Source: a virus
Virus record (IMG/VR): IMGVR_UViG_3300044985_000125
Location: 1 to 22,557 of that record
Reading direction: 5' to 3' (one strand)
DNA length: 22,557 nt
The translations under genes and the position numbers were made by a program. A model generated the notes under the pieces. That model was not told where the DNA came from. It searched no databases and worked only from the letters and a program-made list of their open reading frames with translations. Shown here in pieces: positions 1,324 to 19,120 of the stretch. Positions within the stretch are counted from its first letter, which is position 1, and every line of letters starts with the position of its first letter.

Positions 1324-2661
1324 CTAGTCGTTGAGTTGCGGATCCTTCAGGTCGCGCAGGACGCCATTGGCCACCGGCATGTCGCAACCGATGTTCTCCA
1401 TGCACGCCATGAACGCTTCCCACTTCGCCTGACGGTTGCCCGTCGAAGCGATGGCCAGATGAAGCAGCGAGCCCTCGTCGACCCACTGTGTCTCCTGCGC
1501 CACGTAGTGGAAGAACGTATCCCACGCCAGAAGGAACAGCTCGCGGGGGATGAGGTCGAACGACCGGTTGATCCGGAGGGCAACGCCTGGAGCGTAGTGC
1601 ATCAGCTCCCCCTCTTTGTAACCGGTGCCCTTGTCATACGTCCCCGACTGAACGGCACGCCGACGATCCGGAGCCACGAACTCGATGTACTTCTCGATCT
1701 GCCCCGGGGTCGTCCAGATGTCCGTCACACGCTTCCCGGACTCCTCATGAATCTGATGGCACATCCGGATGAGGATCTGCTCGGTCAGGTTCCGGAGGGT
1801 TCCCCCGTTGTCGTCCACGATCGACTTCAGCTTCTCGTTGCCGGTCAGCGTGCGGTCGATGCCATGGATGTCGGTGCTGTAGGTACCATCGTCGACCAGT
1901 CCCCGGATCCCGTTGGCGAACACGGTGTTCACCTCGGTTGTGACCCCGGTCTTGGAGACGATGATGATGGTGTCGTCGGCCACGACAGTGCTGCCCGAGT
2001 CGTGATCGGTGACGGCCACACCCGCTTCGGTCTCGAAGGTGATCTGACGATTCGTGTAGTTGACGGATGCGACACGGACGCCATCAGTGTCGACAGCGGT
2101 GCCCCGAGGGGCGGTGATGTCTCCACCGTCACGAACGGAGACCTTGTGCCCGACCCGGAGCAGCTTGGTAGCTTCCGGGACACGGAGGGTGATGAAGTCG
2201 TTTTCGGCTGCCTCGACGTAGGCACGAATGCCCAAGCCAGCCGTACCGACGTAGGTGGACTCGACGAACTTGCCGAGGTTGGACGCGGTCTCCTCCGTGC
2301 GCCGACGAACCTCACCTCCGGACCACGCCGACTTGCCGGTGTTCGCAGCACGTCGAGTGAGCCAGCCGATGTTCATCGTCGCCTGGAAGATGGTGGGGCG
2401 CAGGTTGAACTGCACCTCGTTACGACCCCGGGCCGTCTGAAGGTCGCCCTCGTCGAGGATCTGCGCCACGTTCTGGGGCAGAGCCAGCACACCGTTGAAC
2501 TTCACGTCACCTTCGGTGACACGAGCGCCAGCGGGTGTCGACTTGGACAGCTTCTCGCGGAACGGGGCCTCCTCATTGATCATCGGCTCCAGCGCCTTGG
2601 ACGGGTACACCGTCTTCAGAGCTACGCCGAGATCCGAGAATCCCGAACCAATGTTGGCCAT
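1324..2661 (-). CDS. Major capsid protein (HK97-type fold)
   Basis: A 445-residue protein immediately follows the scaffold gene, the usual place and size for a phage major capsid protein. The N-terminal arm (residues 8-39, containing FSDLGVALKTVYPSKALEPM) is typical of capsid families whose arm reads roughly LxxxLKxVYxxxxxxxxNxxxPFxxxL. The middle is beta-rich (residues about 170-240, many Val/Thr/Asp), fitting E-loop and P-domain. The C-terminal third has a helix resembling the HK97 spine region (EQILIRMCHQIHEESGK) and an A-domain-like end. There is no N-terminal cleavage domain of HK97 length; a separate scaffold is used instead. ATG 2661 is preceded by GGGAG (2672-2676). That site can pair with CTCCC at 2681-2685 (read on the minus strand) in a small hairpin, which could limit translation. 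A second copy of the N-arm occurs at 9741-10196. Confidence 0.9.
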   Translation of the reverse strand: MANIGSGFSDLGVALKTVYPSKALEPMINEEAPFREKLSKSTPAGARVTEGDVKFNGVLALPQNVAQILDEGDLQTARGRNEVQFNLRPTIFQATMNIGWLTRRAANTGKSAWSGGEVRRRTEETASNLGKFVESTYVGTAGLGIRAYVEAAENDFITLRVPEATKLLRVGHKVSVRDGGDITAPRGTAVDTDGVRVASVNYTNRQITFETEAGVAVTDHDSGSTVVADDTIIIVSKTGVTTEVNTVFANGIRGLVDDGTYSTDIHGIDRTLTGNEKLKSIVDDNGGTLRNLTEQILIRMCHQIHEESGKRVTDIWTTPGQIEKYIEFVAPDRRRAVQSGTYDKGTGYKEGELMHYAPGVALRINRSFDLIPRELFLLAWDTFFHYVAQETQWVDEGSLLHLAIASTGNRQAKWEAFMACMENIGCDMPVANGVLRDLKDPQLND

Positions 2662-2697: not shown

Positions 2698-3837
2698 CTA
2701 AGCATTGCCGAACATTTTTTCTGCTCGCCATTTGCTATACGCCAGGGTCCAGTTCCCATGCCTGTCGAACTGCGGGACGCTCTTTGGCGGCTGCGGCTCT
2801 TTCATCCCCTGTGGGAGGGGAGGGCCTCCATGCTTTGGCTTTGGCCCAGAGTTGACTGGAGTTCGCTTCTGTCCCGATACCTTTTGGAACTTCGGCTTGA
2901 GGCTCATCGCCTCAGCAAACTCCCCCATCAGGTGCTTGACCGCTGCCGGAATGTTGATGCCCGGTGAGTCCTTGGGCAGTCGATTCAGGTGTTGGGCAAG
3001 CTGGTTCCTGACGGACGTGGTGAGGACACCAAACTGCTTGGAGCTTAGGTCGATCCCGTACTCCTTCGCCTGTGCCCTCATCTCCGTGTTGAACTCTTCA
3101 CGAGTCAGCCTTGCTACTTGAGCGCCACGTAGTTCTTCCTTGCGATGTGTCTCTCTGCGTCCGAGTACAGCCTGTCGAGCCTTGTCCTGCTGTCTCTCGA
3201 TGCCCGCGATCTCTCGGTTGACGCCGTTCAACTCTCGACGCCCACGAGTGACCGAAGACATGATCGACCGAAGTTCACTTCTCTTGGACGAGACCTGCTG
3301 TTGCAGCGTGGACTTCTCGAAGTCTTCCGCCTTGCCGACTTGGGCTTCGAGCGCCTTGATCTCGTTCTCGACCTGACCGTATGCCCCGACCAGTTGCATC
3401 TGGTCCTGTTGGATCGCCTTGATGTCCTCTTGCAGTGAGCCTAGCTGGTTGTTGAGCCCCTGTACGTCCGGATCCTCTGCGATGAGTGCTTCGGGATCCA
3501 CATCGTCCGCATCTTGGTTCATCAGGTAGTCCCGCAACTCGGCCATCTCTTGATGGATCCGAGAAGAGGAATTCGCCTGTTCGAAGTATCCGGCGACCAT
3601 TGCGTCTTCGTCGCCGCCGTACTTGTCCAAGAGCTTCTGAAGAGCCGTGCTGCGTCCCGGCGCAGGGGCATCTTCTGTGTCGTCAGGGGCGTCGTCTCCG
3701 GTGTCGGTCGTGGTGTCGTCGGCTTGGGAGTCGTCTACGGACGCAGCCGTGTCGTCGGTAGGCGTGTCGGTTGGCTGGTCGGTAGGGGAGTCCTCACCGG
3801 TTCCAGCGTCATCGACTGCATCGGCGTCTACTGTCAT
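2698..3837 (-). CDS. Capsid scaffolding protein
   Basis: This 379-residue protein has the layout of phage scaffolds. Residues 1-60 are a very acidic, low-complexity Asp/Thr/Pro-rich tail. A long helical and coiled-coil part follows (about 110-235, rich in Glu, Gln, Lys, Leu). The C-terminus (about 320-379) is basic and Pro/Gly-rich, with a terminal segment containing WTLAYSKWRAEKMF. Basic C-terminal helices of scaffolds bind the inner face of the capsid protein, and this gene lies just 36 bp before the capsid gene, as usual. ATG 3837 has a GAGGAA ribosome binding site. No protease motif is visible. The assignment rests on composition and position, not on a recognised sequence family. Confidence 0.8.
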   Translation of the reverse strand: MTVDADAVDDAGTGEDSPTDQPTDTPTDDTAASVDDSQADDTTTDTGDDAPDDTEDAPAPGRSTALQKLLDKYGGDEDAMVAGYFEQANSSSRIHQEMAELRDYLMNQDADDVDPEALIAEDPDVQGLNNQLGSLQEDIKAIQQDQMQLVGAYGQVENEIKALEAQVGKAEDFEKSTLQQQVSSKRSELRSIMSSVTRGRRELNGVNREIAGIERQQDKARQAVLGRRETHRKEELRGAQVARLTREEFNTEMRAQAKEYGIDLSSKQFGVLTTSVRNQLAQHLNRLPKDSPGINIPAAVKHLMGEFAEAMSLKPKFQKVSGQKRTPVNSGPKPKHGGPPLPQGMKEPQPPKSVPQFDRHGNWTLAYSKWRAEKMFGNA

Positions 3838-3852
3838 TGGTTCCTCGCTTGG

Positions 3853-3871
3853 CTGAGGGGTAGGCCCTCAG
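3853..3871 (-). promoter_or_regulatory. Intergenic hairpin before the scaffold gene
   Basis: CTGAGGG (3853-3859) and CCCTCAG (3865-3871) form a 7-bp stem with a 5-nt loop in the only gap between the zinc-ribbon gene and the scaffold gene. It lies just upstream of the scaffold ribosome binding site. It may be an RNA processing or translation-tuning element; no U-run follows, so it is a poor terminator. Confidence 0.45.
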
Positions 3872-3878
3872 TCGCAAA

Positions 3879-4061
3879 CTACTTTACCACACTGACTTCC
3901 GGCATCTGATTGAAGACACCGGGGGTCAACTTGAACGAATTCGTACACTGAGCGCACTTGATGATGAGAGGGTGATCCCCTCCTGAGAAGTACCCCATCG
4001 TCAACGGTCCTTTCGCAGTTGAAACCGGCCGTCGGCAGGTTGGACACCAAACGGTTCTCAC
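3879..4061 (-). CDS. Small zinc-ribbon protein (60 aa)
   Basis: Two CxxC pairs, C6-P-T-C9 and C36-A-Q-C39, separated by 26 residues, form a classical zinc ribbon. The GTG start at 4061 overlaps the TGA stop of the upstream gene (GTGA), so translation is coupled. It is in the virion gene block between the portal and scaffold genes, where it may act as an assembly factor or in late transcription. The portal protein also carries a CxxC...CxxC insert. No exact family is recognised. The short length is complete: the frame ends with QMPEVSVVK and a TAG stop. Confidence 0.75.
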   Translation of the reverse strand: MRTVWCPTCRRPVSTAKGPLTMGYFSGGDHPLIIKCAQCTNSFKLTPGVFNQMPEVSVVK

Positions 4062-4213
4062 GCTAGTCCTCTAGCCTGATCGCCCGCCTTCTCTCGACTG
4101 GGCTTCCAACCTGTCTTTCGCATCGTTCCGTAGACGTAAGCGTCCGCTCTCTTCTTCGAAAGCCCCTTCTTCTTGGCCTTCACCTTGAGCGCCCGCTCCA
4201 TCTCTTCAGGCAT
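4058..4213 (-). CDS. Small basic protein with AYVYGTMRKTGW motif (51 aa)
   Basis: ATG 4213 directly abuts the previous stop (TAG-ATG) and the TGA stop overlaps the next GTG. The protein is lysine-rich with KAKKKGLSKKRADAYVYGTM followed by RKTGWKPSREK. From memory of the family, small phage proteins with a KKKGLSxxRAxAYVYGTxRKTGWKPS core are common in virion gene blocks. Their function is not established. The charge suggests contact with DNA or with an acidic protein such as the scaffold tail. Confidence 0.75.
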   Translation of the reverse strand: MPEEMERALKVKAKKKGLSKKRADAYVYGTMRKTGWKPSREKAGDQARGLA

Positions 4214-4348
4214 CTAGCCTCCGACAGCCAGCCTGATCAGGTCTGCCTTGCTCAGGCCCTTTGGCTTTGCCTTCGGCTTTGGTCTGGGCTTCGGCTTGAG
4301 GGTGACCATCTTCTTCTCCACCCTCTTCTTCCCAGTCGTGCCGCCCAT
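4214..4348 (-). CDS. Very basic Lys-Pro repeat mini-protein (44 aa)
   Basis: ATG 4348 overlaps the TGA stop of the preceding gene (TGATG) and the TAG stop abuts the next ATG. The sequence contains a Lys-Pro tract (KPKPRPKPKAKPKGL) like histone H1 tails, followed by a short helix, SKADLIRLAVGG. Such tails bind nucleic acid without specificity. Its place among the head genes suggests DNA condensation or an internal virion component. No family is recognised. Both junctions with neighbours are tight, which supports a real gene despite the small size. Confidence 0.65.
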   Translation of the reverse strand: MGGTTGKKRVEKKMVTLKPKPRPKPKAKPKGLSKADLIRLAVGG

Positions 4349-4557
4349 CAGTACGCCGCCTTGTAGGGGCTGTTGTGCTTCACCTTCGTGCGCCGCCTCT
4401 TGCGGTTGCTGGACTTCACCTTGTCGGTGTCTTCCAGATCGGAGATCCCCTTCATCTGGTCCCCGATGGTCGACCCCTCGTGCCGCCCGTAGTTCTTCAC
4501 GGCAACAGTGTTCTGGGCGCTCATGCTGCCCTTCCCGTACTTCTTGTTCTTCGGCAT
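4348..4557 (-). CDS. Small basic protein (69 aa)
   Basis: ATG 4557 follows AGGTAG, part of the preceding gene's stop region; the stop overlaps the next start. Both termini are basic (MPKNKKYGKG at the N-terminus, NRKRRRTKVKHNSPYKAAY at the C-terminus), around a more acidic middle (GISDLEDTDK). It is unrecognised. With the 82-, 44- and 51-residue genes it makes a run of four basic mini-proteins between portal and scaffold. Confidence 0.65.
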   Translation of the reverse strand: MPKNKKYGKGSMSAQNTVAVKNYGRHEGSTIGDQMKGISDLEDTDKVKSSNRKRRRTKVKHNSPYKAAY

Positions 4558-4818: not shown

Positions 4819-7434
4819 CTACTGCGCTTCTGCTGCCCCCGGCGAGGACCCCGGTGCTACTTGTGGGGCCATCGCGGCCATCTGTGCCTTCTGTGCCATG
4901 AGGCGATAGCCATCGACCACCGCACGGAAGCGCATGAACTGTTCGACCTTCTGCTGGACCTCACCGGGATCCTGCATGGTCTGGTTCGCCTTCCCGATGA
5001 TGACTGCTTGAAGGCCCTGCATCTCTGGCGGTTGCTCAGCCGTGCGAACGTCGATCATCTGCTGCCACACGCCAAAGATCTTGATCTCGATCTGCTTCGG
5101 CAAGAAGACAGGCGCGGGAGGTTCCTGCGGAGGAGGAGGCATGGCAGCGGCAGCATCAGGGTTCTGTCCATCCGGACCAGCATCTTCCAAGACGGTGGCT
5201 ACCATCGTGTCGAACTGCTTCTTCTGCTCTTCGTAGTTGCTCAGGGCCTCCGCGTACATCTCTGCGGCTTCCTGTGGGGGAGGCTCGCCACCGTAGAACT
5301 CACGGGTTCTGGCATCGACAGCTTCGAGTCGGGAGAGGGTATCCTCCCATCCAGCGATGAGGGGAAGGATCTGATCCCATCCAGCTTCGGCCGCCATCTG
5401 CTTCCCTTCGTCCTGAAGGATCATGGTGCCGAGGGTCTGGAATCTGATCTGGTGATTGTCGATCGAGGGGTCGATGACCGGGATAACCTGATCGTCTACG
5501 AAGTCCACCCACTGCTGCTTGGCCTTGTCGATCTGAAGTGAGGAGTCCTCGTTGATGTCCGTCGGGAGACCCATGTTCTCAAGGATCCTCTTCTTCGCCA
5601 GCGGGCTCGTCGCGTCGTAAAGCTGATCGGTCAACGCCTCACGAGTGGCCTCCCGCATGATCACAGACTGGTCGACGTACGCCTGCTTCTCGACTTTCAC
5701 CTTCGTCTGACCGGCGATGGCCTCCCGGTCGTACTGCTTCAACTCCCATGAGCCATCAGGGGAAGCCTGCTCGTAGGTGTCTGGGTCGACTCGGTTGACC
5801 CAGAGCAGCTTGAGTTGATGCTCCCAAATGGATTCAAGCGAGGTCACGATGCCGCGTTCACGGGTCGCCCTCTTTCGTTCGGCCTGCTCACCCAGGATTT
5901 GGAGCCCGGACGTAGTAGTGACGTTGCGAGGGGCCTCGCCGACTTCAATGTCAGCAGGACCGACGATCGCAGTCATATCGTCAATGCAGGCTTGCCGCTC
6001 GTTGTAGACGCCTTGTGGCATCAGGATCGACCCGAAGACCTCTGGCTTGGCGTCTGGATTGATAGGGGAGACGCGATAGCGGAAGAGCTTGCCCAGACCG
6101 TAGGCCGCGTTGAACTCGGGGCCTTCAAGGTCTGCGTCTTCCGGGATCAAGAGGTTCGGCGAGCCCATGCGCTCGCGGGCCTCGATCGTCTGCGCGTCCA
6201 TCCCGTTGATTCGGTTCTGTGGGGAGATCAGGTCGTCAGGCAGTGCCTTGCCCCAGAACTCCCCCTCACGTCTCTTCCACACAGCAGAGGTGAGCATGAC
6301 CTCCGGGACCTCTGCCATCCCCTTCTCATCTTCGATCCGCTGCATCAAGGGACCGTTGGCTGCGATGAGTCCCTGTTTATGACCGATGATGATGATCTTC
6401 CGGCCCTCCGGGTGACGGTAGGAAGGGTCGTGATAAAGCTCGAAGACCTGGGTGTGGTGATCGTAGATCCCGGCGTCAAAGCCGTAGTCGAAGCGGCCGA
6501 TGATGTCCCACTCGCCAAGCATCGGGTGCGAGCGCATCAGTTCCTCGGGTGACTCTGGCTCGACCTCGTCGATGAGGTCGGGGTACTGCTCCTCGACCCA
6601 GTCGAGGGAGCGCACCTTGAGGACACCGTGCATCACGGAGTTCGTGTTGTCGACTCCAACCCCACCGTTCTGAGGGTAGTACTCGAAAGGGGAGATCACC
6701 TCAAGATCGGTGCCTCCCCTTGGGGTCTGACGGCCAAGAGGACGAGCGAAGAGATCTCTACCGTGTGACTGCTCCTCATTGAGATTGGCTTGTTCCAGCG
6801 GTCCACCACACGCGACACACGCTGTAATCGGCGTCCCTTCCTTCGTGAAGGGTTCCGAGAAGGTGGCCCCGCACGAAGAACAGCGAGCAGCATCGACCGA
6901 CACCCACATCAATTCCGACCAGCTCTCGTTCCAGAACGACTTCATGATCCCCGTGCCGAACGTGATCACGTTGCGGATAAATCGGTCCCGCTTGTCTGGC
7001 CATTTGAGTTTCTCCAGCCTGTCGTTCAGGACATCGTTGGCAACCTTGACTGCGGCTTGGGAACGAGGGTCGCGGGTACTCGTGACCACCTTCGGCTTCC
7101 ACTGGCGCTTTGACAGCGTGGAAAACTCGATGTCGATCGCGGGCGCGATGCGGTTCGTAACAGGACGGGGAAGCTCGATCTCGGAAGTGGGCTGCATCTC
7201 TCGGAAGGCGAACCCACGAACACCTTCGAACGTCTGCTCCCAGTCGCGCTCGATCCACTGCCGACCGAGATCGTAGTAGAGAGCTAGGGCAACTCGGGTG
7301 AGATGCCTGTTGCGGTACTGGGAGTACCGCTGGAAGTAGCGGTCACGGAAGCCGAGGACATAGTCTTCATCTGCTTCGACTGTCGGGAAGCGAAACAGCT
7401 TGTCCTTGTCGAAGACGATGGTGTCATCAGCCAT
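4819..7434 (-). CDS. Portal protein (871 aa) with a zinc-ribbon insert
   Basis: The portal forms the ring at the capsid vertex through which DNA is packaged. The 871-residue length puts it among large portals like that of P22. Recognisable features are a helical N-terminus (about 35-65, tyrosine/arginine-rich), LPRPVTNRIAPAIDIEFSTL (about 88-107), a wing and stem region with EFWGKALPDDLISPQNRING (about 392-411), and PADIEVGEAPRNVTTTSGLQ (about 493-512). The C-terminal part has coiled-coil and low-complexity Pro/Ala/Gln stretches. An insert at about residues 185-210 has two CxxC pairs (C185, C188, C206, C209), a likely zinc ribbon. ATG 7434 overlaps the previous stop by 8 nt and has AGAGGA upstream. 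A diverged copy of residues about 495-514 occurs in the small gene at 10835-11065. Confidence 0.88.
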   Translation of the reverse strand: MADDTIVFDKDKLFRFPTVEADEDYVLGFRDRYFQRYSQYRNRHLTRVALALYYDLGRQWIERDWEQTFEGVRGFAFREMQPTSEIELPRPVTNRIAPAIDIEFSTLSKRQWKPKVVTSTRDPRSQAAVKVANDVLNDRLEKLKWPDKRDRFIRNVITFGTGIMKSFWNESWSELMWVSVDAARCSSCGATFSEPFTKEGTPITACVACGGPLEQANLNEEQSHGRDLFARPLGRQTPRGGTDLEVISPFEYYPQNGGVGVDNTNSVMHGVLKVRSLDWVEEQYPDLIDEVEPESPEELMRSHPMLGEWDIIGRFDYGFDAGIYDHHTQVFELYHDPSYRHPEGRKIIIIGHKQGLIAANGPLMQRIEDEKGMAEVPEVMLTSAVWKRREGEFWGKALPDDLISPQNRINGMDAQTIEARERMGSPNLLIPEDADLEGPEFNAAYGLGKLFRYRVSPINPDAKPEVFGSILMPQGVYNERQACIDDMTAIVGPADIEVGEAPRNVTTTSGLQILGEQAERKRATRERGIVTSLESIWEHQLKLLWVNRVDPDTYEQASPDGSWELKQYDREAIAGQTKVKVEKQAYVDQSVIMREATREALTDQLYDATSPLAKKRILENMGLPTDINEDSSLQIDKAKQQWVDFVDDQVIPVIDPSIDNHQIRFQTLGTMILQDEGKQMAAEAGWDQILPLIAGWEDTLSRLEAVDARTREFYGGEPPPQEAAEMYAEALSNYEEQKKQFDTMVATVLEDAGPDGQNPDAAAAMPPPPQEPPAPVFLPKQIEIKIFGVWQQMIDVRTAEQPPEMQGLQAVIIGKANQTMQDPGEVQQKVEQFMRFRAVVDGYRLMAQKAQMAAMAPQVAPGSSPGAAEAQ

Positions 7435-7903
7435 CAGCCGGATCCTCTATAGGAGGTGGGTGCGTTGGATGCTCATCCTCTTCCTTGTCCTTGATGTACT
7501 CGCCAGGTTGTCCCTCCTCATGTGGGGTGGGAGCAGGGGAGGGACTCGAACCCCCGACCTCCGGGGTATGAACCCGGCGCTCTGTCTCGACTGAGCTACC
7601 CTGCATCTGACTCCCCGAAATGTAGGGGCGTGGGACGGGGGGTGGGAGCATTCCGCCTCCAGGGAAGTTCACCTTGCGTTGATGCTCTCCGTTCCCCGGG
7701 CTTGAAACAATAGGACGGGGTGGAAGAGGATGAACTTCCCGATGAGCGGCCGGTTGACAGACGGCAAGAAGTCGGTCGATGAGTGCCGTCTCCCTGTCGT
7801 GTGCAGCCTGTTGAATCAGTCTGACCTGAGCCCGAAGGTCAGAGTTCTCGGCCTTCAGAGCAGCGATGGCATCTTGAAGCACACGGGTTTGTGCAAACCA
7901 CAT
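7427..7903 (-). CDS. Coiled-coil protein whose frame reads through a tRNA gene (158 aa)
   Basis: The N-terminal half (residues 1-50) is a good coiled coil, with QDAIAALKAENSDLRAQVRL and then QQAAHDRETALIDRLLAV. It is followed by Pro-rich low-complexity sequence. From about residue 100 the same frame reads through the tRNA at 7528-7605, giving the typical spurious tRNA translation RVHTPEVGGSSPSPAP. It then continues to a TGA at 7427-7429 that overlaps the portal start by 8 nt. The start ATG 7903 lies 7 nt after a TACACT box and has no clear ribosome binding site, so the mRNA may be leaderless. The function is unknown. The N-terminal 95 residues are the most credible part; the C-terminal end may be fortuitous, though it does link tightly to the portal gene. 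Confidence 0.6.
   Translation of the reverse strand: MWFAQTRVLQDAIAALKAENSDLRAQVRLIQQAAHDRETALIDRLLAVCQPAAHREVHPLPPRPIVSSPGNGEHQRKVNFPGGGMLPPPVPRPYISGSQMQGSSVETERRVHTPEVGGSSPSPAPTPHEEGQPGEYIKDKEEDEHPTHPPPIEDPADG
7528..7605 (-). tRNA. tRNA-Met (CAU anticodon) with encoded CCA
   Basis: A full cloverleaf can be drawn on the minus strand: acceptor TGCAGGG/CCCTGCT (6 pairs, position 1:72 unpaired U-U), D-stem GCTC/GAGC, anticodon stem CCGGG/CCCGG with loop TTCATAC (anticodon at 7568-7570), variable loop AGGTC, T-arm GGGGG-TTCGAGT-CCCTC, discriminator C and encoded CCA (7528-7530). The three G-C pairs next to the anticodon loop and the unpaired 1:72 end are hallmarks of bacterial initiator tRNA. 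The D-stem pair C11-G24 is of the elongator type, and the D-loop lacks the usual GG. CAU could also mean an Ile2 tRNA if the host modifies C34 to lysidine. The tRNA lies inside a reading frame on the same strand. Confidence 0.88.
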
Positions 7904-8260: not shown

Positions 8261-9916
8261 TCACCAGCGAGGAGGCTGCCCGGGACGGATTGAGCCCCGG
8301 GTCTGGTCTTCATGGTGGCGACGGACAGCCGTCCTCTTCTTCTTCTGAACCCAGCGACGGAAACTAGCAGTCCGAACCTCCACTGGTTTCGGCGCATCGG
8401 GCAATTTGTCGCGTTCGGCTCTGCGGAGGGACCGCCAGCCTTCAGGTTGGAGGAATGCCACTGCCTGAGTGAACGTGTCGACCTGATCGTCGTAGGCACC
8501 CTTGGGAAACTGGGCGCATTCCTCGACGAACTCCCAGACCCACCGGTCCTTGGTGTTGTCGTCCTTCTGGGGGAGGTGGACATTGTGGGCCATGACGAAC
8601 GGAACGGCCGCTTCGACGCGGCTCCGCTTCGCGGTGTTCTTCACTGGGACTGGGACCACCCCGGGCACGTCGTGGGTGATCGTCTGCTTGAGGGCTGGCC
8701 CCATGGCGGTGTCCTCGACCAGCTTCATGATCGCCTTGGGGTACTTCCGGGCGAAGTTCTTCATGTGCCAGATGACCTCGCCGATGTGGAAGTGGCCCCG
8801 GATGGAATCGACGAGGAAGATGTCGGCGTTCTTCCGGCACCAGACTTGGCCGACGGAGAAGTCGTTGACCTCCTGATCCTTCAGGGCGAGGTCCCACGAC
8901 TGGAGCCACTGATCCGGCTCCTCGGGGAGCGAGTTGTAGTACTGCCACCAGTCCCGCTTCAGCAGTCCTCCACCTTCAGGTGTTGGACGGCCCTGATGGA
9001 GCGCGGACCACCAGAATGGAGACATGCTGGATTTCCGGATCTGGTAGTCCGGATCGTCACTGTGGAACTCAGGCCAGAGCGGATCTCCGACTGCTCGTCC
9101 AAGAGGATCGTTTGCTTCAGCCAAGGACGGAATGTTGATGGTCGTCCACTGGTCAGCGTAGTTGTCGAGAATTCGTCCGAAGAGGTCATCTTGATGCCAC
9201 CTCGTCATGACTCCTACGATTACGCCCTTGGGCTGGAGCCGAGTGAGAGCGGAGGACTGGAACCACTCCCACATCTTGTCTCGGTAGACCTGCGACTCTG
9301 CTTCCTCTGCGCTCTTGACCACGTCATCAAGAATCATCAGGTCAGCGCCCTTGCCCATGAGGGAGCCGCCGTAGCCCACGCAGATCATCCCGCCGCCTGT
9401 CGTGAGTTCCCAGTTGTTGGCGGCGACTTTGTCGGGGTTGATCCGCAGATTCAGGACATCGCCATACTCGATGATCAGGTCGCGGACCTTGGCTCCCCAG
9501 TCCCGGGCGAAGGTCTCGTTGTAGCCGACGAGGATGATCTTGTCCTTGGGGTGGCGTGCGAGCCACCACGCAGGGAGGTACACGTCGATGAGGAGGGACT
9601 TGCCGTGCCGGGGGCCGAGGGAGACGAGGAGGCGGCGAAGGTCTCTCTTCTCCATGTCCACCAGATGGCGGGAGATGAAGTCGAGATGGAGGGCATGATG
9701 CCAGACCCCATGCGAAAATTCGACGGCGAATTCTGCGGGGTTAGGTGGAAGATCGGGCGCGGAGCCGAGGCCGACGGCGAGGCTGTTGAGCTTTTCGAGC
9801 AGCTCGTTCAGTTGAGGAATGGTCAGGCGGGACCGGGCTGAAGTCGAGCCGATCAGCTTTTCGACGCTCGGCACGTTCGCTTTCATACTCTGCGAGTGTA
9901 CCATCACGCCAAGCAC
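8261..9916 (-). CDS. terL: Terminase large subunit (ATPase and nuclease)
   Basis: This motor subunit pumps DNA into the prohead and cuts the concatemer. The ATPase domain shows a Walker A-like GPRHGKS (residues 101-107), Walker B LMILDD (193-198) and the coupling motif TRWH (238-241). The nuclease domain shows SWDLAL (D342), E401-D402 and DDQVD (D476, D477, D480), the acidic cluster expected of an RNase H-like fold. The length of 551 residues is normal. I prefer the GTG start at 9916 because GGGAG lies upstream at 9924-9928; ATGs at 9904 and 9886 lack such a site. Any plausible start overlaps the preceding gene by at least 134 nt. The small subunit is not adjacent but about 2.4 kb upstream. 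Confidence 0.93.
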   Translation of the reverse strand: MLGVMVHSQSMKANVPSVEKLIGSTSARSRLTIPQLNELLEKLNSLAVGLGSAPDLPPNPAEFAVEFSHGVWHHALHLDFISRHLVDMEKRDLRRLLVSLGPRHGKSLLIDVYLPAWWLARHPKDKIILVGYNETFARDWGAKVRDLIIEYGDVLNLRINPDKVAANNWELTTGGGMICVGYGGSLMGKGADLMILDDVVKSAEEAESQVYRDKMWEWFQSSALTRLQPKGVIVGVMTRWHQDDLFGRILDNYADQWTTINIPSLAEANDPLGRAVGDPLWPEFHSDDPDYQIRKSSMSPFWWSALHQGRPTPEGGGLLKRDWWQYYNSLPEEPDQWLQSWDLALKDQEVNDFSVGQVWCRKNADIFLVDSIRGHFHIGEVIWHMKNFARKYPKAIMKLVEDTAMGPALKQTITHDVPGVVPVPVKNTAKRSRVEAAVPFVMAHNVHLPQKDDNTKDRWVWEFVEECAQFPKGAYDDQVDTFTQAVAFLQPEGWRSLRRAERDKLPDAPKPVEVRTASFRRWVQKKKRTAVRRHHEDQTRGSIRPGQPPRW

Positions 9917-10196
9917 TCAGTTGCTCCCAACGCATCTGCTTCCGCTCTAGGAGATCGGCCATCCAGTCGGTCGTGTCTGGCCCAAGCTCCAGATCGGTCT
10001 CTCCCAGTAGGGCACAGAGTTGGATGGCGAGGGACTCAGTCCAAGCGTCATGCTCCAGCGCATTCCGCCACGGGGCCTTGGCGTTGATGATCTTGTCGAG
10101 GGCATTCGGAGGGTAGATCTGCTTCAGAGCCTCCCCGATGTTGGCGAAGCTGCCAGCCATGTAGAGGAGATCGGAGCCGACGTACTTCTCGGTCAT
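9741..10196 (-). CDS. Small protein starting with a copy of the capsid N-arm (151 aa)
   Basis: ATG 10196 overlaps the previous TGA stop (ATGA). Residues about 17-48 (containing FANIGEALKQIYPPNALDKI) align without gaps to residues 8-39 of the major capsid protein of this same phage, with 15 of 32 identical (F, G, ALK, YP, AL, IN, AP, R, L). After that the similarity stops and a different helical segment follows (ERKQMRWEQLSAWRDGT). The last part is Arg/Pro-rich (RKAQQPRRRPRLRARSST) and overlaps the start of the terminase gene by 176 nt, so it may be recent read-through. The capsid arm mediates contacts in the shell, so a free arm could bind capsid or scaffold. That is inference. Confidence 0.65.
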   Translation of the reverse strand: MTEKYVGSDLLYMAGSFANIGEALKQIYPPNALDKIINAKAPWRNALEHDAWTESLAIQLCALLGETDLELGPDTTDWMADLLERKQMRWEQLSAWRDGTLAEYESERAERRKADRLDFSPVPPDHSSTERAARKAQQPRRRPRLRARSST

Positions 10197-10522
10197 ATCG
10201 ACTGGTGCTGCTCGCCGTGGATGGCGTTGAAGAGGGTGGCCGCACGGAGGGCGATCATCCACGCGAGTTGGGAGTCTGGGATCTGGACACCCTTGTCGAT
10301 GCCAGTCTCATCGGGTCCGGATGGGACAGGAGGGTCGCTAGGGATCCCGGAGAGGAGCCACGCGATGTGGTAGGCGGTGTCCTTGTCGTCTCCGGTGTGG
10401 GTGACCTTGTCCCATGTGGCGTAGGGGTTGCCCCTCCTGTCCTTCTGGGGGAGGTAGATCATGGGCTGAGCGACCCCGAGGCAGCCGAGAAGCGCCGAGA
10501 TGTTGGTGGGTTCGGCCTTCAT
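10193..10522 (-). CDS. Unknown small protein in the pre-terminase cluster (109 aa)
   Basis: ATG 10522 overlaps the previous TGA stop (ATGA) and its own stop overlaps the next ATG in the same way. The sequence begins MKAEPTNISALLGCLGVAQP and ends with a helix containing QLAWMIALRAATLFNAIHGE. No catalytic or metal-binding motif is visible, and I recognise no family. The coupled junctions on both sides argue that it is translated. Confidence 0.65.
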   Translation of the reverse strand: MKAEPTNISALLGCLGVAQPMIYLPQKDRRGNPYATWDKVTHTGDDKDTAYHIAWLLSGIPSDPPVPSGPDETGIDKGVQIPDSQLAWMIALRAATLFNAIHGEQHQSI

Positions 10523-10803
10523 CCGGTGATCTTCTGGTTGAGTTCGGCCCGGAAGAACTTCCCGTCGGTGAACATGGGAGGCGTAGGAGGAACGAGCCCT
10601 TCCTTCCGGAGGGAGTCCTCGAATCGCTGGAGGGGGAGGTAGTAGGGGGCCACCCCGGCTTGCTTCTCCCCTCTCCAGTCAGGGCCTCCCATGATCAGGC
10701 AGAAGGCTTGGGAGTAGGGGCGCTCGCAGATGAAGCCCTCCTTGAGGAGATCGTCGAGTTGAGTCGCACCCCACAGTTCTTCTACGTTTCGTTCTACACC
10801 CAT
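10519..10803 (-). CDS. Unknown small protein with its own near-consensus promoter (94 aa)
   Basis: I chose ATG 10803 because it lies 6 nt after the -10 box of a near-consensus promoter (10810-10838), which implies a leaderless mRNA. The frame stays open far upstream to 11046, but that extension is Ser/Pro/Arg-rich and is the shadow of the portal-fragment gene. The protein begins MGVERNVEELWGATQLDDLL and includes a Gly/Pro/Phe-rich middle (CLIMGGPDWRGEKQ). Its TGA stop overlaps the next ATG. No family is recognised. Confidence 0.65.
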   Translation of the reverse strand: MGVERNVEELWGATQLDDLLKEGFICERPYSQAFCLIMGGPDWRGEKQAGVAPYYLPLQRFEDSLRKEGLVPPTPPMFTDGKFFRAELNQKITG

Positions 10804-10809
10804 GCCTAG

Positions 10810-10838
10810 ATTGTAGGGATGCTTGCCGTAGATGTCAA
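10810..10838 (-). promoter_or_regulatory. Near-consensus promoter, leaderless, before 10519-10803
   Basis: On the minus strand TTGACA (10833-10838, perfect -35) and TACAAT (10810-10815, 5 of 6) are 17 nt apart. CTAGGC then leads directly into ATG 10803, so the transcript would start at the start codon. The TGA stop of the portal-fragment gene lies inside the -35 box. The same TACAATCTA-(3 nt)-start pattern occurs at 11526. Confidence 0.8.
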
Positions 10839-11065
10839 GACGCTTCTTGGAACCGCTCGATCGCGTCCCAGATGGAGGACGCCACTTGGCGTCCGAGGGG
10901 CATGGGATCCCTCGTCCTCTGCCCTGCCGTGATCTCTGGGGAGAAGAGGATGAAGGAGAGATTGTCGAAGGGGTCACCCTCGGAGCGGGTCTGGTCTTGG
11001 AGGATCTGGAGGCCGCTGGTGGTGGTGATGTTCCGGGGAGGCTCACCCATCTCGATGTCCTTCAT
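10835..11065 (-). CDS. Small protein starting with a copy of an internal portal segment (76 aa)
   Basis: ATG 11065 overlaps the previous TGA stop (ATGA). Residues 3-21 (DIEMGEPPRNITTTSGLQI) match portal residues 495-513 (DIEVGEAPRNVTTTSGLQI) at 16 of 19 positions. Most third codon positions differ between the two, for example ACC-ACC-ACC-AGC-GGC here and ACT-ACT-ACG-TCC-GGG in the portal. After about residue 25 the sequence is unrelated (GDPFDNLSFILFSPEITAG) and ends IWDAIERFQEAS. So this is a portal piece fused to other sequence, not a simple truncation. It may bind portal subunits or compete with them; this is inference. Confidence 0.7.
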   Translation of the reverse strand: MKDIEMGEPPRNITTTSGLQILQDQTRSEGDPFDNLSFILFSPEITAGQRTRDPMPLGRQVASSIWDAIERFQEAS

Positions 11066-11358
11066 CGGGTGTCCCGGATGACTTCGGTGTCGTTGAGGGG
11101 ATAGCTCCACTCGTCGTGGTCGAGGTCTTGGACATCGAGGAGGTCGCAGGCAACCTTGGCGAAGATCATGCGGAAGTCGTCAGAGTTGCCGGGGTCTTTG
11201 TGGGGATCGAAGTCGGGGTGACCGACGGATTCAGGGAAGCCTCCGAGGAGGATGACGTGGAGCCATGGGGAGACGAACTTCCGCCCTGCGGGGTTGGTCT
11301 CGACCCGTTGGGTGCTGCCATCGTCGGTGACCTTCCAGCCGTTGGCGGATTGGCTCAA
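11062..11358 (-). CDS. Unknown small protein (98 aa, TTG start)
   Basis: The TTG start at 11358 overlaps the TGA stop of the preceding gene (TTGA) and its own TGA overlaps the next ATG. Upstream in-frame sequence is Arg/Pro/Ser-rich shadow. The protein includes NPAGRKFVSPWLHVILLGGF and an acidic helix, DDFRMIFAKVACDLLDVQDL. No known family or motif is recognised. Confidence 0.6.
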   Translation of the reverse strand: MSQSANGWKVTDDGSTQRVETNPAGRKFVSPWLHVILLGGFPESVGHPDFDPHKDPGNSDDFRMIFAKVACDLLDVQDLDHDEWSYPLNDTEVIRDTR

Positions 11359-11519
11359 GCGGGGCCTCGTCCGTGTTCGTTGGGGAGATCGAAGCCTTCG
11401 GCTGCGCGGAGGAGGATGGAGTCGAAGTCTTCCCACTGGGAGGGGAGGGTTTCGTAGGCAAGGCCGAGGGTGAGCATGGCGATGTGGTCGTCGGGATAGA
11501 TGAGGTGGTCGAAGTCCAC
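11355..11519 (-). CDS. First small gene of the pre-terminase cluster (54 aa, GTG start)
   Basis: An upstream ATG at 11558 is in frame, but the promoter at 11526-11554 would start transcription after it. The GTG at 11519 lies 6 nt past the -10 box and is the likely leaderless start. The protein begins VDFDHLIYPDDHIAMLTLGL and ends in NEHGRGPA, with an amphipathic helix in between. It is unrecognised. Its stop overlaps the next TTG start. Confidence 0.55.
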   Translation of the reverse strand: MDFDHLIYPDDHIAMLTLGLAYETLPSQWEDFDSILLRAAEGFDLPNEHGRGPA

Positions 11520-11525
11520 GGGTAG

Positions 11526-11554
11526 ATTGTAGGCGGGATGGGGTGCTACGGCAA
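11526..11554 (-). promoter_or_regulatory. Promoter of the pre-terminase small-gene cluster
   Basis: On the minus strand TTGCCG (11549-11554) and TACAAT (11526-11531) are exactly 17 nt apart, followed by CTACCC and GTG 11519. It lies downstream of the terminator at 11638-11671, as expected for a fresh transcription start. It shares TACAATCTA with the promoter at 10810. Confidence 0.7.
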
Positions 11555-11637: not shown

Positions 11638-11671
11638 AAAAAAAGGGCCGCCCCCATGCGGGGAGCGGCCC
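11638..11671 (-). terminator. Strong intrinsic terminator
   Basis: On the minus strand GGGCCGCTCCCC-GCAT-GGGGGCGGCCC folds into an almost perfect stem with a 4-nt loop, followed by seven T (11638-11644). It comes 9 nt after the stop of the 88-residue gene and closes the small-terminase transcript. Confidence 0.92.
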
Positions 11672-12366: not shown

Positions 12367-12879
12367 CTATTCAGGTTCTTGGTCAGTGTCGTCGACAGTG
12401 CCAATGTCCTGACCACTGTCCAAAGCTCTTGCTTGCACCAGTTGCGAAATGCGAGCGTCGATCTGGCGCATCAGGCTTTGTCTATCGAAGTCGTGAATGA
12501 TCTTCTCGCTTAACATGCCATGTACTTTGGCGTTAAGCTCGATCGCCTTCATCCGATCTTTGTGATCAGGGTCTCTCACTATCTCTGATAGGTGTCTGAG
12601 CAACTCATCCGGCTTAACGCCACACGACTCAATCCATGTAAGGCGTGCTGCTTCAGCCACATCACCAAACTTCTTCACCAACCTCGGCCCTTGCGTATTC
12701 GGGAACCGATACCCCACTACACGCGCTGCCTTCGTAGGGTCCAATGCCGCTTCCTCCGCATAGACCTTCCAGAACTGTCCCACCAGTTTCGGAATGACCT
12801 TCACGTAATGGGCCTTTAGCAGCCGTCGCCAATCCCCCGGATTCCCCCCATTCCCAGTCTCACGCGCCTCAGTGGCCAT
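12367..12879 (-). CDS. terS: Terminase small subunit (DNA recognition)
   Basis: The small subunit recognises the packaging site and regulates the large subunit. The 170-residue length is typical. The middle has the helix-turn-helix pattern of small terminases, DPTKAARVVGYRFPNTQGPR with LVKKFGDVAEAA (about residues 47-77). It is followed by LLRHLSEIVRDPDHKDRMKA and IELNAKVHGMLSEKI, matching the xLxxIxxDxxxKxxxxxKALELxxKxxGM pattern of the family. The acidic C-terminus (DDTDQEPE) could contact the large subunit. ATG 12879 has a poor ribosome binding site and a TAGAAT box (12902-12907) upstream without a clear -35. It is the first gene of the left arm and is separated from the large subunit by eight small genes. 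Confidence 0.8.
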   Translation of the reverse strand: MATEARETGNGGNPGDWRRLLKAHYVKVIPKLVGQFWKVYAEEAALDPTKAARVVGYRFPNTQGPRLVKKFGDVAEAARLTWIESCGVKPDELLRHLSEIVRDPDHKDRMKAIELNAKVHGMLSEKIIHDFDRQSLMRQIDARISQLVQARALDSGQDIGTVDDTDQEPE

Positions 12880-14492: not shown

Positions 14493-15573
14493 CGAGCAGG
14501 AGTTCGAGCATATCGAGACGACGATTGCCGAACTGCCCAAGTACATGGAGCTTGCCGATCAGACAGGCATCGCTCTCAACATCATCGGTCCCCATGGCGT
14601 GGGCAAGACGCAAATCGTCTACGAATACGGCAAGGCCAACAACCGCCTCGTCTGTGACCGGGTCATCTCGATCATGGACCCGACCGCCGAGTTCGCCATG
14701 GCCGCACTCGATCCGAGTGGCGATCTCAAGTTTCGCCACAATCGCTCCTTCCCCTTCGAAGGATTCGAAGACGAGTGGCTGCACCCCACATCGAAGGCAC
14801 CGCCGATAGTGCTGTTCGATGAGTTCAACCAAGCGCAGACATCCCAACAGAACATGGCCATGAAGATCGTACTGGAGCGCCATGTCCACAACCGCCCACT
14901 GATCCCCGGCACCATGATGGTGCTGGCCGGTAATCGCATCACCGACCACGCCTTCGTGAATCGCTACTCCGGGCCGCTGGCCAACAGAGTTCTCTGGCTC
15001 TACATCCAAGCCTCACTCGAAGACTTCTTCGACTTCGCACACTCCACCAACCGGATCCATGAGTTCGTGATCGCCTACCTCAAGCTGAACCCCAACCACC
15101 TGCACATCTCCACCATGGAGGAGACAACGATCGACGAGCAGACCAAGGTCATGGCCACTTACGAAGGCCCTCACCCCACACCCCGGACTTGGGAATTCGT
15201 CTCCAAGGTTCTCGACTCGAACCCCACAGAGCATGTGCGCCTCACTGCTATCGCTGGACTCGTGGGTCCAGCAGTGGCTACGACCTTTGAGCAGACCTAT
15301 CGGCTCAAGGACGACATGCCCGACCTCAAGACGGTCTGCAACACAGGCGATGGCAAACTGCCCAAGGAAGTGGGGACTCGCTTCGTACTTGTGAGCGCCC
15401 TCCTCAAGAGAGTAAGCGAGGACAACCTCGGCAACATCCTGAAGTACTTCGGCAAGATGGACTCCGAAGTGAGCGTCATGTTCGTGAAGCTGATGCTCAA
15501 GCACAAGCTCACTCTCGCCTCTCACCCGGCTTATGCGGCATGGGCGGTGAAGCATGGCAAGCTCCTCGCCTGA
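14479..15573 (+). CDS. MoxR-type AAA+ ATPase (364 aa)
   Basis: MoxR ATPases work with VWA proteins to remodel or mature protein and metal-cofactor complexes. Motifs visible: Walker A GPHGVGKT (37-44), Walker B VLFDEFNQA (111-119, in the DEhN form typical of MoxR), sensor 1 VLAGNR (148-153), the arginine-finger region GPLANRV (165-171) and sensor 2 TPRTWEFV (234-241). The C-terminal third is helical. ATG 14479 follows the perfect AAGGAGCCAA site (14469-14478). The VWA partner is encoded 2.4 kb downstream at 17933-19120 and a DUF3150-like gene lies between. A CobS-like ATPase is a close alternative name for the same group. Confidence 0.88.
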   Translation: MKRPDEQEFEHIETTIAELPKYMELADQTGIALNIIGPHGVGKTQIVYEYGKANNRLVCDRVISIMDPTAEFAMAALDPSGDLKFRHNRSFPFEGFEDEWLHPTSKAPPIVLFDEFNQAQTSQQNMAMKIVLERHVHNRPLIPGTMMVLAGNRITDHAFVNRYSGPLANRVLWLYIQASLEDFFDFAHSTNRIHEFVIAYLKLNPNHLHISTMEETTIDEQTKVMATYEGPHPTPRTWEFVSKVLDSNPTEHVRLTAIAGLVGPAVATTFEQTYRLKDDMPDLKTVCNTGDGKLPKEVGTRFVLVSALLKRVSEDNLGNILKYFGKMDSEVSVMFVKLMLKHKLTLASHPAYAAWAVKHGKLLA

Positions 15574-15772
15574 TCACGTCAGGGACTTCCGCAACAGACT
15601 GCCCAACTCCTTTGACGACCTTGAGCAAGCGGTCATCGAAGCCTTGGACGCAGCGGACATCGCCTTCCAAAACACCTACGAGGATTTCCCCGAGGCACAA
15701 CCCGAGTTTCGCTTCGCCCAGAACGTGGACTACCTCGCTCTTGGGAACACTGACAACGGATGGTACAGATGA
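15554..15772 (+). CDS. Small acidic protein, first of a tandem paralogous pair (72 aa)
   Basis: ATG 15554 lies 20 nt inside the end of the ATPase gene. The protein is acidic and shares a pattern with the next gene: F/L-D-D-L-E near residue 20, then an I-x-x-L-D helix, and an end of DYLALGNTDNGWY here against DWLTIGSTEPNWY there. It is therefore a tandem duplicate. The function is unknown; position suggests an accessory to the MoxR system. Confidence 0.7.
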   Translation: MASSSPDHVRDFRNRLPNSFDDLEQAVIEALDAADIAFQNTYEDFPEAQPEFRFAQNVDYLALGNTDNGWYR

Positions 15773-15987
15773 TTGACCCACCTAAGCTCGACGACCTTGA
15801 GAGCGGGATCATCCAAGTGCTTGACGAGTTCGACAAGAAGTTCATCAACCTGATACTGCACCACGACGAAATCGTCGCCGAGAACGCGGGAAGCGACACC
15901 GTGAGCATCTCTGAGAACCTCGACTGGCTGACCATCGGTTCGACCGAGCCTAACTGGTACGGATCGGGGAAGCTGATCAACTCATGA
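15769..15987 (+). CDS. Small acidic protein, second of a tandem paralogous pair (72 aa)
   Basis: ATG 15769 overlaps the previous TGA (ATGA); an in-frame ATG at 15760 is the alternative. Shared with the upstream gene are LDDLESGIIQVLDEFD against FDDLEQAVIEALDAAD, and the ending NLDWLTIGSTEPNWYG. The C-terminal GSGKLINS is unrelated to a P-loop in context. Its stop overlaps the next ATG. The function is unknown. Confidence 0.7.
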   Translation: MIDPPKLDDLESGIIQVLDEFDKKFINLILHHDEIVAENAGSDTVSISENLDWLTIGSTEPNWYGSGKLINS

Positions 15988-17719: not shown

Positions 17720-17936
17720 GTACATCTACAACGGGCCGCACATCATCTGCATCTGCGTGGGTGAGGAGATCAAGGACATGCACGACAGGCACAAGGTACT
17801 TGTCGGCATCGTCCAAACCACCATGAAGCGCAACCGGCCAAACCCGAACCCACGAAAGATCTGGAGTGACTTCTGGTACCCAATGGAGCATTACACCCGA
17901 CCGTTCAACCGCCGCTACGAGGAAGGAGCCAAATGA
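17712..17936 (+). CDS. Unknown small protein (74 aa, GTG start)
   Basis: The GTG at 17712 follows GGGAGG and overlaps the end of the previous gene by 8 nt; the upstream open frame is Arg/Ser-rich shadow. The sequence begins VPEYIYNGPHIICICVGEEI and ends in a basic, aromatic-rich tail (KIWSDFWYPMEHYTRPFNRR). Its stop overlaps the next ATG. No motif is recognised. Confidence 0.65.
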   Translation: MPEYIYNGPHIICICVGEEIKDMHDRHKVLVGIVQTTMKRNRPNPNPRKIWSDFWYPMEHYTRPFNRRYEEGAK

Positions 17937-19120
17937 ACCAACTGCCGTTGCCCCTGATTCGAGCCAAGAATCAGGTCACTCTCAAGGAGTACTTCTACGC
18001 CGTCCTGATGATGGGCATGAAGACCGTCGTCAACGAAAAGATGCCCGCTGCAATGGGCACCGACGGGAAGCACATCTACGTCAACCCGGCGTTCATCAAG
18101 AGCGAACAGTGGACGCAGGACCACATGATCTTCGCGTTCATGCACGAATGCATCCACGTCATGACCGGGGATATGTGGTGGGCCACCGAGATGAGTCTCG
18201 ACAAGGATTTGGCCAATCAGGCTGCCGACCACTGGATCAACCTCACGCTCATCGCCGAGGGGAAGATCGCACCGAAGAACTGCCTCAAGGACACCAAGTA
18301 CCAGACGAGACACGGACTCTGGACGAAGCTCCAGATCTACAAGGATCTTCTGAACCAGCAGCAGGGACAACAAGGAACGACACAAGGCAACGATCCCTTC
18401 AAAGGGGACGTGATACCTGTTCCACCGGACCCCAACCTGAAAGCCGAGATCGGGCTCAGGGTGAAGGCAGCCGTCCAAGCTGCCAAGTCCTGTGGTGGTC
18501 CCGTCCCGACGTGGGCTGCCGACATGGTCGAAGACATGGCCAAGCCCAAGGTCAACTGGAAGCGTCGACTCTTCCACCTTGCTTCGACGGTCACCTTCGC
18601 ACGAACCGACTACTCGTACCGCCGTCACAACAGACGCTACATCCCTCAAGGGATCATCGCCCCGACTCTCTACAACCCCGACTCGACCATCGGTGAGATC
18701 GTTTGCGCCGTTGATACTTCAGGCTCCGTCAGTCAAGAGGAGCTAGAGCAGTTTTGGGGCGAGATCGTGGAGATCCTCAAGAACCTTCAGCCCCGCAAGA
18801 TGTGGGTGCTGGACGTGGATACGGACATCAGGAAGACACGATGCTACACACCCGAGGACGAGATCCCAACCAAGGTCGAAGTGTCCGGACGTGGGGGCAC
18901 TTCGTTCATCAAGCCTTTCGACTGGATCGAGGACAGGTTCCAAGGAATTGACATGAGTGCCGGTGAAGACTTCCGGCCGCAGATGCTCATCTACCTCACC
19001 GATCTCGAAGGTGGGTTCCCCGCTAATGCTCCAACCTACCCGGTCATCTGGGTATCAACGACCGACCTCACCGCACCATTCGGCGAGACGATTCACATCG
19101 ACATGGGGAGGGACGAATGA
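17933..19120 (+). CDS. Metallopeptidase-like / VWA domain protein, DUF2201-type (395 aa)
   Basis: The N-terminal part has a zincin-like motif HECIH (71-75) followed by a DLANQAADHWIN stretch (92-103), as in DUF2201 putative metallopeptidases. The C-terminal part is a VWA-like domain with a full MIDAS set: DTSGS (261-265), T323 in GRGGTS and D357 in YLTDLEG. Such proteins are the usual partners of MoxR ATPases. Between the domains is a Gln/Gly-rich linker (about 141-153). ATG 17933 has the perfect AAGGAGCCAA site (17923-17932) and overlaps the previous stop. Substrate and role in the phage are unknown. Confidence 0.88.
   Translation: MNQLPLPLIRAKNQVTLKEYFYAVLMMGMKTVVNEKMPAAMGTDGKHIYVNPAFIKSEQWTQDHMIFAFMHECIHVMTGDMWWATEMSLDKDLANQAADHWINLTLIAEGKIAPKNCLKDTKYQTRHGLWTKLQIYKDLLNQQQGQQGTTQGNDPFKGDVIPVPPDPNLKAEIGLRVKAAVQAAKSCGGPVPTWAADMVEDMAKPKVNWKRRLFHLASTVTFARTDYSYRRHNRRYIPQGIIAPTLYNPDSTIGEIVCAVDTSGSVSQEELEQFWGEIVEILKNLQPRKMWVLDVDTDIRKTRCYTPEDEIPTKVEVSGRGGTSFIKPFDWIEDRFQGIDMSAGEDFRPQMLIYLTDLEGGFPANAPTYPVIWVSTTDLTAPFGETIHIDMGRDE

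Follow-up and report, generated by a model that had tools for sequence, protein, structure and literature searches.

This study analyzed a stretch of DNA (the window) from an uncultured phage, a linear virus record of 22.6 kb with the late gene block on the minus strand. The late block contains, in this order, a terS-like gene, six small genes (S6 to S1), terL, two small genes, the portal gene, five small genes, a scaffold-like gene and the gene for the major capsid protein (MCP) (Table 1). No lysogeny gene was recognized within this fragment. A tRNA-Met gene (CAT; 7528-7605, late strand) lies in the 3′ part of the open reading frame 7427-7903 in the interval between terL and the portal gene, and the final third of this frame is probably the tRNA read as protein. 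Downstream of the MCP gene, the minus-strand frames 1-414 and 415-1281 are mutually related (31% over 109 residues, E=3e-6), the second being cut by the contig end. The genes 15554-15772 and 15760-15987 are neighboring tandem paralogues to which no function was assigned (E=2e-8). At 17933-19120, a metallopeptidase-like and VWA-like protein (DUF2201 and its N-terminal domain) is encoded, an odd pairing for the replication-side block of a phage.

Table 1. Features of the late gene block and of the small-gene cluster in the window.
Feature	Position	Strand	Remarks
terS-like gene	12367..12879	-	PHROG terS E=1e-3
Intrinsic terminator, upstream of cluster	11645..11671	-	11 pairs, T7; layout in L004 alike
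Promoter-like TTGCCG-17-TACAAT	11526..11554	-	TACAAT 6 nt before S6 GTG (11519)
S6	11355..11519	-	GTG start, 6 nt after -10 box
S5	11062..11358	-	TTG start overlaps S6 stop
S4	10835..11065	-	N-terminal portal piece; C-terminal part homologous to L004 small genes
Portal piece in S4 (DIEMGEPPRNITTTSGLQILQDQT)	10988..11059	-	18/24 identical; portal profile E=1.5e-8
Promoter-like TTGACA-17-TACAAT	10810..10838	-	6 nt before S3 ATG (10803)
S3	10519..10803	-	Small gene; portal resemblance not supported
S2	10193..10522	-	Homologue 44% identical in L004/L005; no virion piece
S1	9741..10196	-	MCP N-arm-like N-terminus; terL start overlapped
Capsid N-arm piece in S1 (MAGSFANIGEALKQIYPPNALDKIINAKAPWRNAL)	10056..10160	-	tblastn E=4e-5; MCP-only profile E=1.3e-9
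terL	8261..9886	-	PHROG E=6e-100
Portal gene	4819..7434	-	PHROG connector family E=1.4e-6; Foldseek top matches podophage portals
Portal-gene stretch matching S4 piece	5881..5952	-	Residues 495-518; portal family strongly conserved there
MCP gene	1324..2661	-	PHROG major head protein E=6.7e-7
MCP-gene stretch matching S1 piece	2548..2652	-	N-arm, residues 4-38

Organization of the small-gene cluster

The six small genes (11519 down to 9741) are tightly packed between the terS-like gene and terL. As described in the initial annotation, they overlap each other, by TTGA at S6/S5 and by ATGA at S5/S4, S3/S2 and S2/S1, all read directly from the sequence; S1 also overlaps the start of terL over 146 nt. 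The two promoters proposed there correspond to two promoter-like sites (1.0 +/- 1.0 in shuffled sequences), and CCTACAATCTA occurs exactly in the window only at these sites. Both -10 boxes are located 6 nt ahead of a start codon, a layout as in leaderless mRNAs. A strong terminator parts the cluster from the upstream genes, and the same order of terminator and promoter was found in the related contig L004. In the more distant relatives L006, L008 and L009, an oppositely oriented ATPase gene takes the place of the cluster upstream of terL; therefore, the cluster behaves like an accessory insertion. The features of a moron or accessory cluster, i.e. insertion between conserved genes together with own promoter-like sites and a terminator, were all found. 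In L009, a tRNA-Ser (2375-2451) lies between the ATPase gene and terS.

Capsid and portal pieces in S1 and S4

The similarity of S1 to the capsid N-arm and of S4 to the portal, both noted in the initial annotation, could be substantiated and refined, and in each gene unrelated sequence follows the piece. S1 was identical to MCP residues 4-38 at 15 of 35 positions (E=4e-5), and a profile built from seven MCP N-arms detected S1 (E=1.3e-9) and its homologues in L004 and L005 (2.6e-8) among about 5,900 open reading frames. The similarity is confined to the first ~35 MCP residues. Within S1, the arm starts at the internal Met13 (MAGSF, base 10160); the MCPs of relatives start with MAGEF. The structure model of S1 was of low confidence (pLDDT 53) and did not resolve the fold of the arm.

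Residues 3-26 of S4 match portal residues 495-518 at 18 of 24 positions, 17 of 20 in DIEMGEPPRNITTTSGLQIL. Depending on direction and search space, tblastn E-values ranged from 8e-6 to 4e-8, and a profile from 14 portals found S4 as well (E=1.5e-8). The piece matches a part of the portal that is among its best conserved; of the 15 residues shared by all 14 portals at positions 495-514, S4 retains 14. On the DNA level, 49 of 72 bases are identical to the portal gene of the window, with 50.4 expected from random synonymous codons, in agreement with the earlier observation that the silent positions of this piece have diverged. A recent capture from the portal of a known relative was considered and dropped, the best donor (L011, 59/72 bases) not being above random-codon expectation (P=0.08). 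Silent positions are thus randomized with respect to the portal of the window and those of the tested relatives, so that no recent donor was found.

Specificity was analyzed at two levels. An all-against-all comparison of the 39 annotated proteins of the window returned at E<1e-3 only the pairs S1-MCP and S4-portal and one pair of adjacent tandem paralogues. In a scan of 83 contigs with 1470 antisense open reading frames as decoys, self matches to portal or MCP occurred only in this phage family; the few other matches look like low-complexity similarity, and two of them were antisense decoys. Considering the E-values, the family profiles and the all-against-all result, the observation is real and far above chance, and chance was also rejected because relatives carry similar pieces.

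Further candidates were dropped. Scaffold-like matches of S2 and g11681 (single-sequence E-values of 0.26 and 0.014) were lost once a scaffold profile was used. For S3, profile comparison did not support a portal-helix piece, despite P=0.0025 for one pairwise score to L024 A. Gene C of L024 showed a marginal resemblance to the capsid arm, with 37 of 2000 shuffles scoring as well. Profile comparison also gave no support for a common fold of S2-S6, except for the homology of S4 to the L004 genes described below.

Recurrence in relatives and evolution of the cluster

Relatives were represented by eleven viral contigs with a portal gene, to which MCP and TerL searches added L024, L025, L027, L028 and L031. 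All are metagenomic fragments, and those of L004 and L005 come without their MCP genes. Searches of bacterial genomes with portal or MCP profiles found no relatives. Among isolated phages, the portal gave weak, distant matches only, and MCP and S1 gave none; for MCP and portal, no structure relative was found by sequence.

L004 and L005 have TerL proteins 77% and 76% identical to that of the window and also contain homologues of S1, S2 and S3, with just 39-44% identity. Their S1 proteins are likewise arm-first (MVGEFANLSDVLKQVYSAKMFTDMVNKESAFRDML) and open exactly as the MCPs of relatives (MAGEF...). In L006, a 166-residue protein (4003-4503) otherwise unlike S1 shows a weak N-terminal match to the arm (E=0.003); its gene lies on the opposite strand together with a replication ATPase gene. 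Homology to S4 was found for the L004 small genes 3812-4042 and, weakly, 4039-4269. The protein encoded at 3812-4042 contains an internal duplication (FHLLVYPSNNDVES / CFLLVYPSNNDVES) and is homologous to the C-terminal part of S4, without the portal piece.

A different part of the portal recurs in L024 and L025, where REKKMxxxFxxxWTHQxDLx occurs in small genes that lie one to three positions upstream of terL. This motif matches RERGIxxxFxxIWEHQLxxL of the portal (residues about 526-548), just past the stretch copied in S4, with profile E-values of 3e-5 and 5e-5 among 24 small proteins; none of 2000 shuffles reached the score, and the profile-profile comparison with hhalign gave E=1.4e-6. According to a weak model of the portal (pLDDT 57), the best structural matches of which are nevertheless podophage portals, a loop (497-508) is followed by a helix (509-546). 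The portal pieces would thus probably cover this loop and the long helix, the S4 piece representing the loop and the helix start. As an internal segment of 24 residues, the S4 piece would not fold as a portal domain. Judged from these comparisons, this phage family recurrently carries small genes that contain parts of its own capsid and portal proteins. The initial annotation had regarded a compacted old duplication as the simpler alternative: this explains where the pieces came from, but alone it does not account for their recurrence, and because the portal stretches differ between lineages, the pieces do not go back to one simple duplication event.

The overlapping small genes upstream of terL in L024 (798-1282) and L025 (733-1124) have a C-terminal CEFEK(x)ER in common, the rest being unrelated. 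This motif may mark a set of small proteins with a shared tag.

Between the window and L004, pN/pS was 0.66 for S1 outside the arm, 0.74 for S2, 0.70 for S3 and 0.33 for TerL; for the S1 arm it was 0.82, pieces of 20-35 residues being too short for a good measurement on their own. The arm was 33% identical, compared to 43% for the remaining S1. Outside the cluster, only about four substitutions in 9.7 kb separate the near-identical sibling L003 from the window. The S4 of this sibling is a strongly diverged allele (pN/pS 0.89) with the portal piece cut to 8 residues (TTSGLQML), and L003 also differs at the S3 start and in a patch of S1. The invariant residues retained in S4 of the window, together with the randomized silent positions, would suggest constraint; in view of the L003 allele, this has to be taken with caution. 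Between lineages, in-frame indels but no stops were observed in the cluster frames, and therefore the genes are not pseudogenes; a decaying duplicated pseudogene was dropped as a candidate, no frames being broken by stops or frameshifts in relatives. The cluster genes are, however, under loose or diversifying constraint, and their alleles are swapped. The earlier suggestion of a maintained mimic set thus stands in part. Matches above chance, open frames and recurrence at the same place in other lineages agree with it, but the pN/pS values of S1-S3 in comparison to TerL, the arm being no better conserved than the rest of S1, and the L003 allele argue against maintenance.

Possible functions and comparison with known systems

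With a probability of roughly 37%, we favor the interpretation that S1-S6 represent a fast-evolving, moron-like accessory cluster in which S1 and S4 are built around segments captured from virion proteins of the same phage. The MCP N-arm would have been captured into S1 and the highly conserved portal stretch into S4, and the resulting proteins could occupy the partners of the copied segments. For the arm, these may be the scaffolding protein or neighboring capsid subunits; in phage 80alpha, the scaffold helix touches mainly the N-arm helix of the capsid protein (PMC5644958). Occupation of the partners might interfere with head assembly or time it, most plausibly against related co-infecting phages. 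The homology of the pieces, their recurrence and family specificity, the coding frames and the autonomous unit of terminator and promoter-like sites support this interpretation, and the changes of S4, S3 and S1 in L003 are counted in its favor as arms-race-like behavior. The arm pN/pS, being no lower than in the rest of the cluster, and the shortened portal piece of L003 count against it, as do the low-confidence model of S1 and the small size of the S4 piece, too short to fold as a portal domain.

Nearly as likely as such a mimic function is that the pieces are captured fragments without it. A recombination-prone region upstream of terL would turn pieces of nearby virion genes into small frames, some of which are kept as accessory proteins with a function unrelated to the source. 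The range of pN/pS in the cluster (0.66-0.89), the swapped S4 allele of L003 with its shortened piece, the unrelated sequence after each piece and the different portal stretches of the lineages can all be explained in this way. Less easily explained are the recurrence in several lineages, the restriction of the sources to the best-conserved parts of two proteins, with no scaffold or TerL pieces, and the capsid piece always being the N-terminal arm located at or near the N-terminus.

Somewhat doubtful is the more specific form of the favored interpretation, according to which self-derived decoys act as an exclusion system: the family would repeatedly build small proteins from its own capsid arm and the most conserved stretch of the portal, and the rapidly swapped set beside terL would interfere with or time assembly against related phages. 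If true, a phage would fight its relatives, or time its own assembly, using copies of its own assembly interfaces. Such copies have been reported for satellites; for a phage's own genes, a limited literature search found no report. It would also offer a simple sequence test for uncultured phages, namely a search for small genes in which segments of virion proteins of the same genome occur. Even without mimic function, the locus shows new phage genes assembled from conserved virion fragments.

A role of the MCP arm as a tag that docks or targets the protein fused to it (S1, the L006 gene) to the inside or the surface of the prohead is unlikely. The capsid-targeting sequences of phage T4 are short N-terminal tags on internal head proteins which are removed by the prohead protease. 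Like these, the arm is an N-terminal, capsid-related segment common to otherwise unrelated phage proteins, here the MCP, S1 and, weakly, the L006 protein, and unrelated C-terminal parts follow it in two different genes. The portal pieces, which are internal, are left unexplained by a tag; also, the S1 arm diverges fast, and the L006 gene lies with a replication ATPase gene on the opposite strand.

Similarly unlikely is a role as decoys for a host immune sensor, where the small proteins present the sensed capsid or portal segments and thereby keep the sensor off the real proteins. Sensors of the MCP (CapRel, Lit) and of portal or terminase (Avs) have been reported (PMC9712102, PMC10286901), and fast evolution with allele swapping fits an arms race; but presenting a sensed segment may switch the sensor on instead of blocking it, binding of these segments has not been reported for any known sensor, and the small proteins themselves have no PADLOC match (S1-S5 and related small genes, E<=0.1). 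Chance similarity or decaying duplicated pseudogenes would agree with short matches and fast evolution, but are highly improbable in view of E-values from 1e-5 to 1e-9, the shuffle and antisense controls, and frames that stay open with in-frame indels over large divergence.

Among known systems, the position of the proposed accessory cluster resembles that of anti-Tab. Tab is a prophage defence which blocks tail assembly, and the anti-Tab gene lies between the terminase genes (PMC10884400). The likeness is one of position in the terS-terL interval and, if the proposed role holds, of an action on virion assembly; unlike the genes described here, Tab, the activity of which is linked to the tape measure, has no reported virion-protein piece.

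With respect to the copied segments, the cluster can be compared with satellites, which redirect assembly with capsid or scaffold mimics: CpmB of SaPI1 copies the capsid-binding motif of the 80alpha scaffold, and Ccm of SaPIbov5 is a homologue of the capsid protein (PMC5644958, PMC8569155). The scaffold profile gave no match of the CpmB type in S1-S6, and a full-length capsid homologue of the Ccm type was not found, the match being limited to the N-terminal arm. In common with CpmB and Ccm, S1 and S4 are small or homologous proteins with a copied virion-assembly interface; CpmB and Ccm change head assembly, and S1 and S4 might do so. Unlike the satellite-encoded scaffold motif or whole capsid protein, the pieces found here are short segments of capsid arm and portal encoded by the phage itself.
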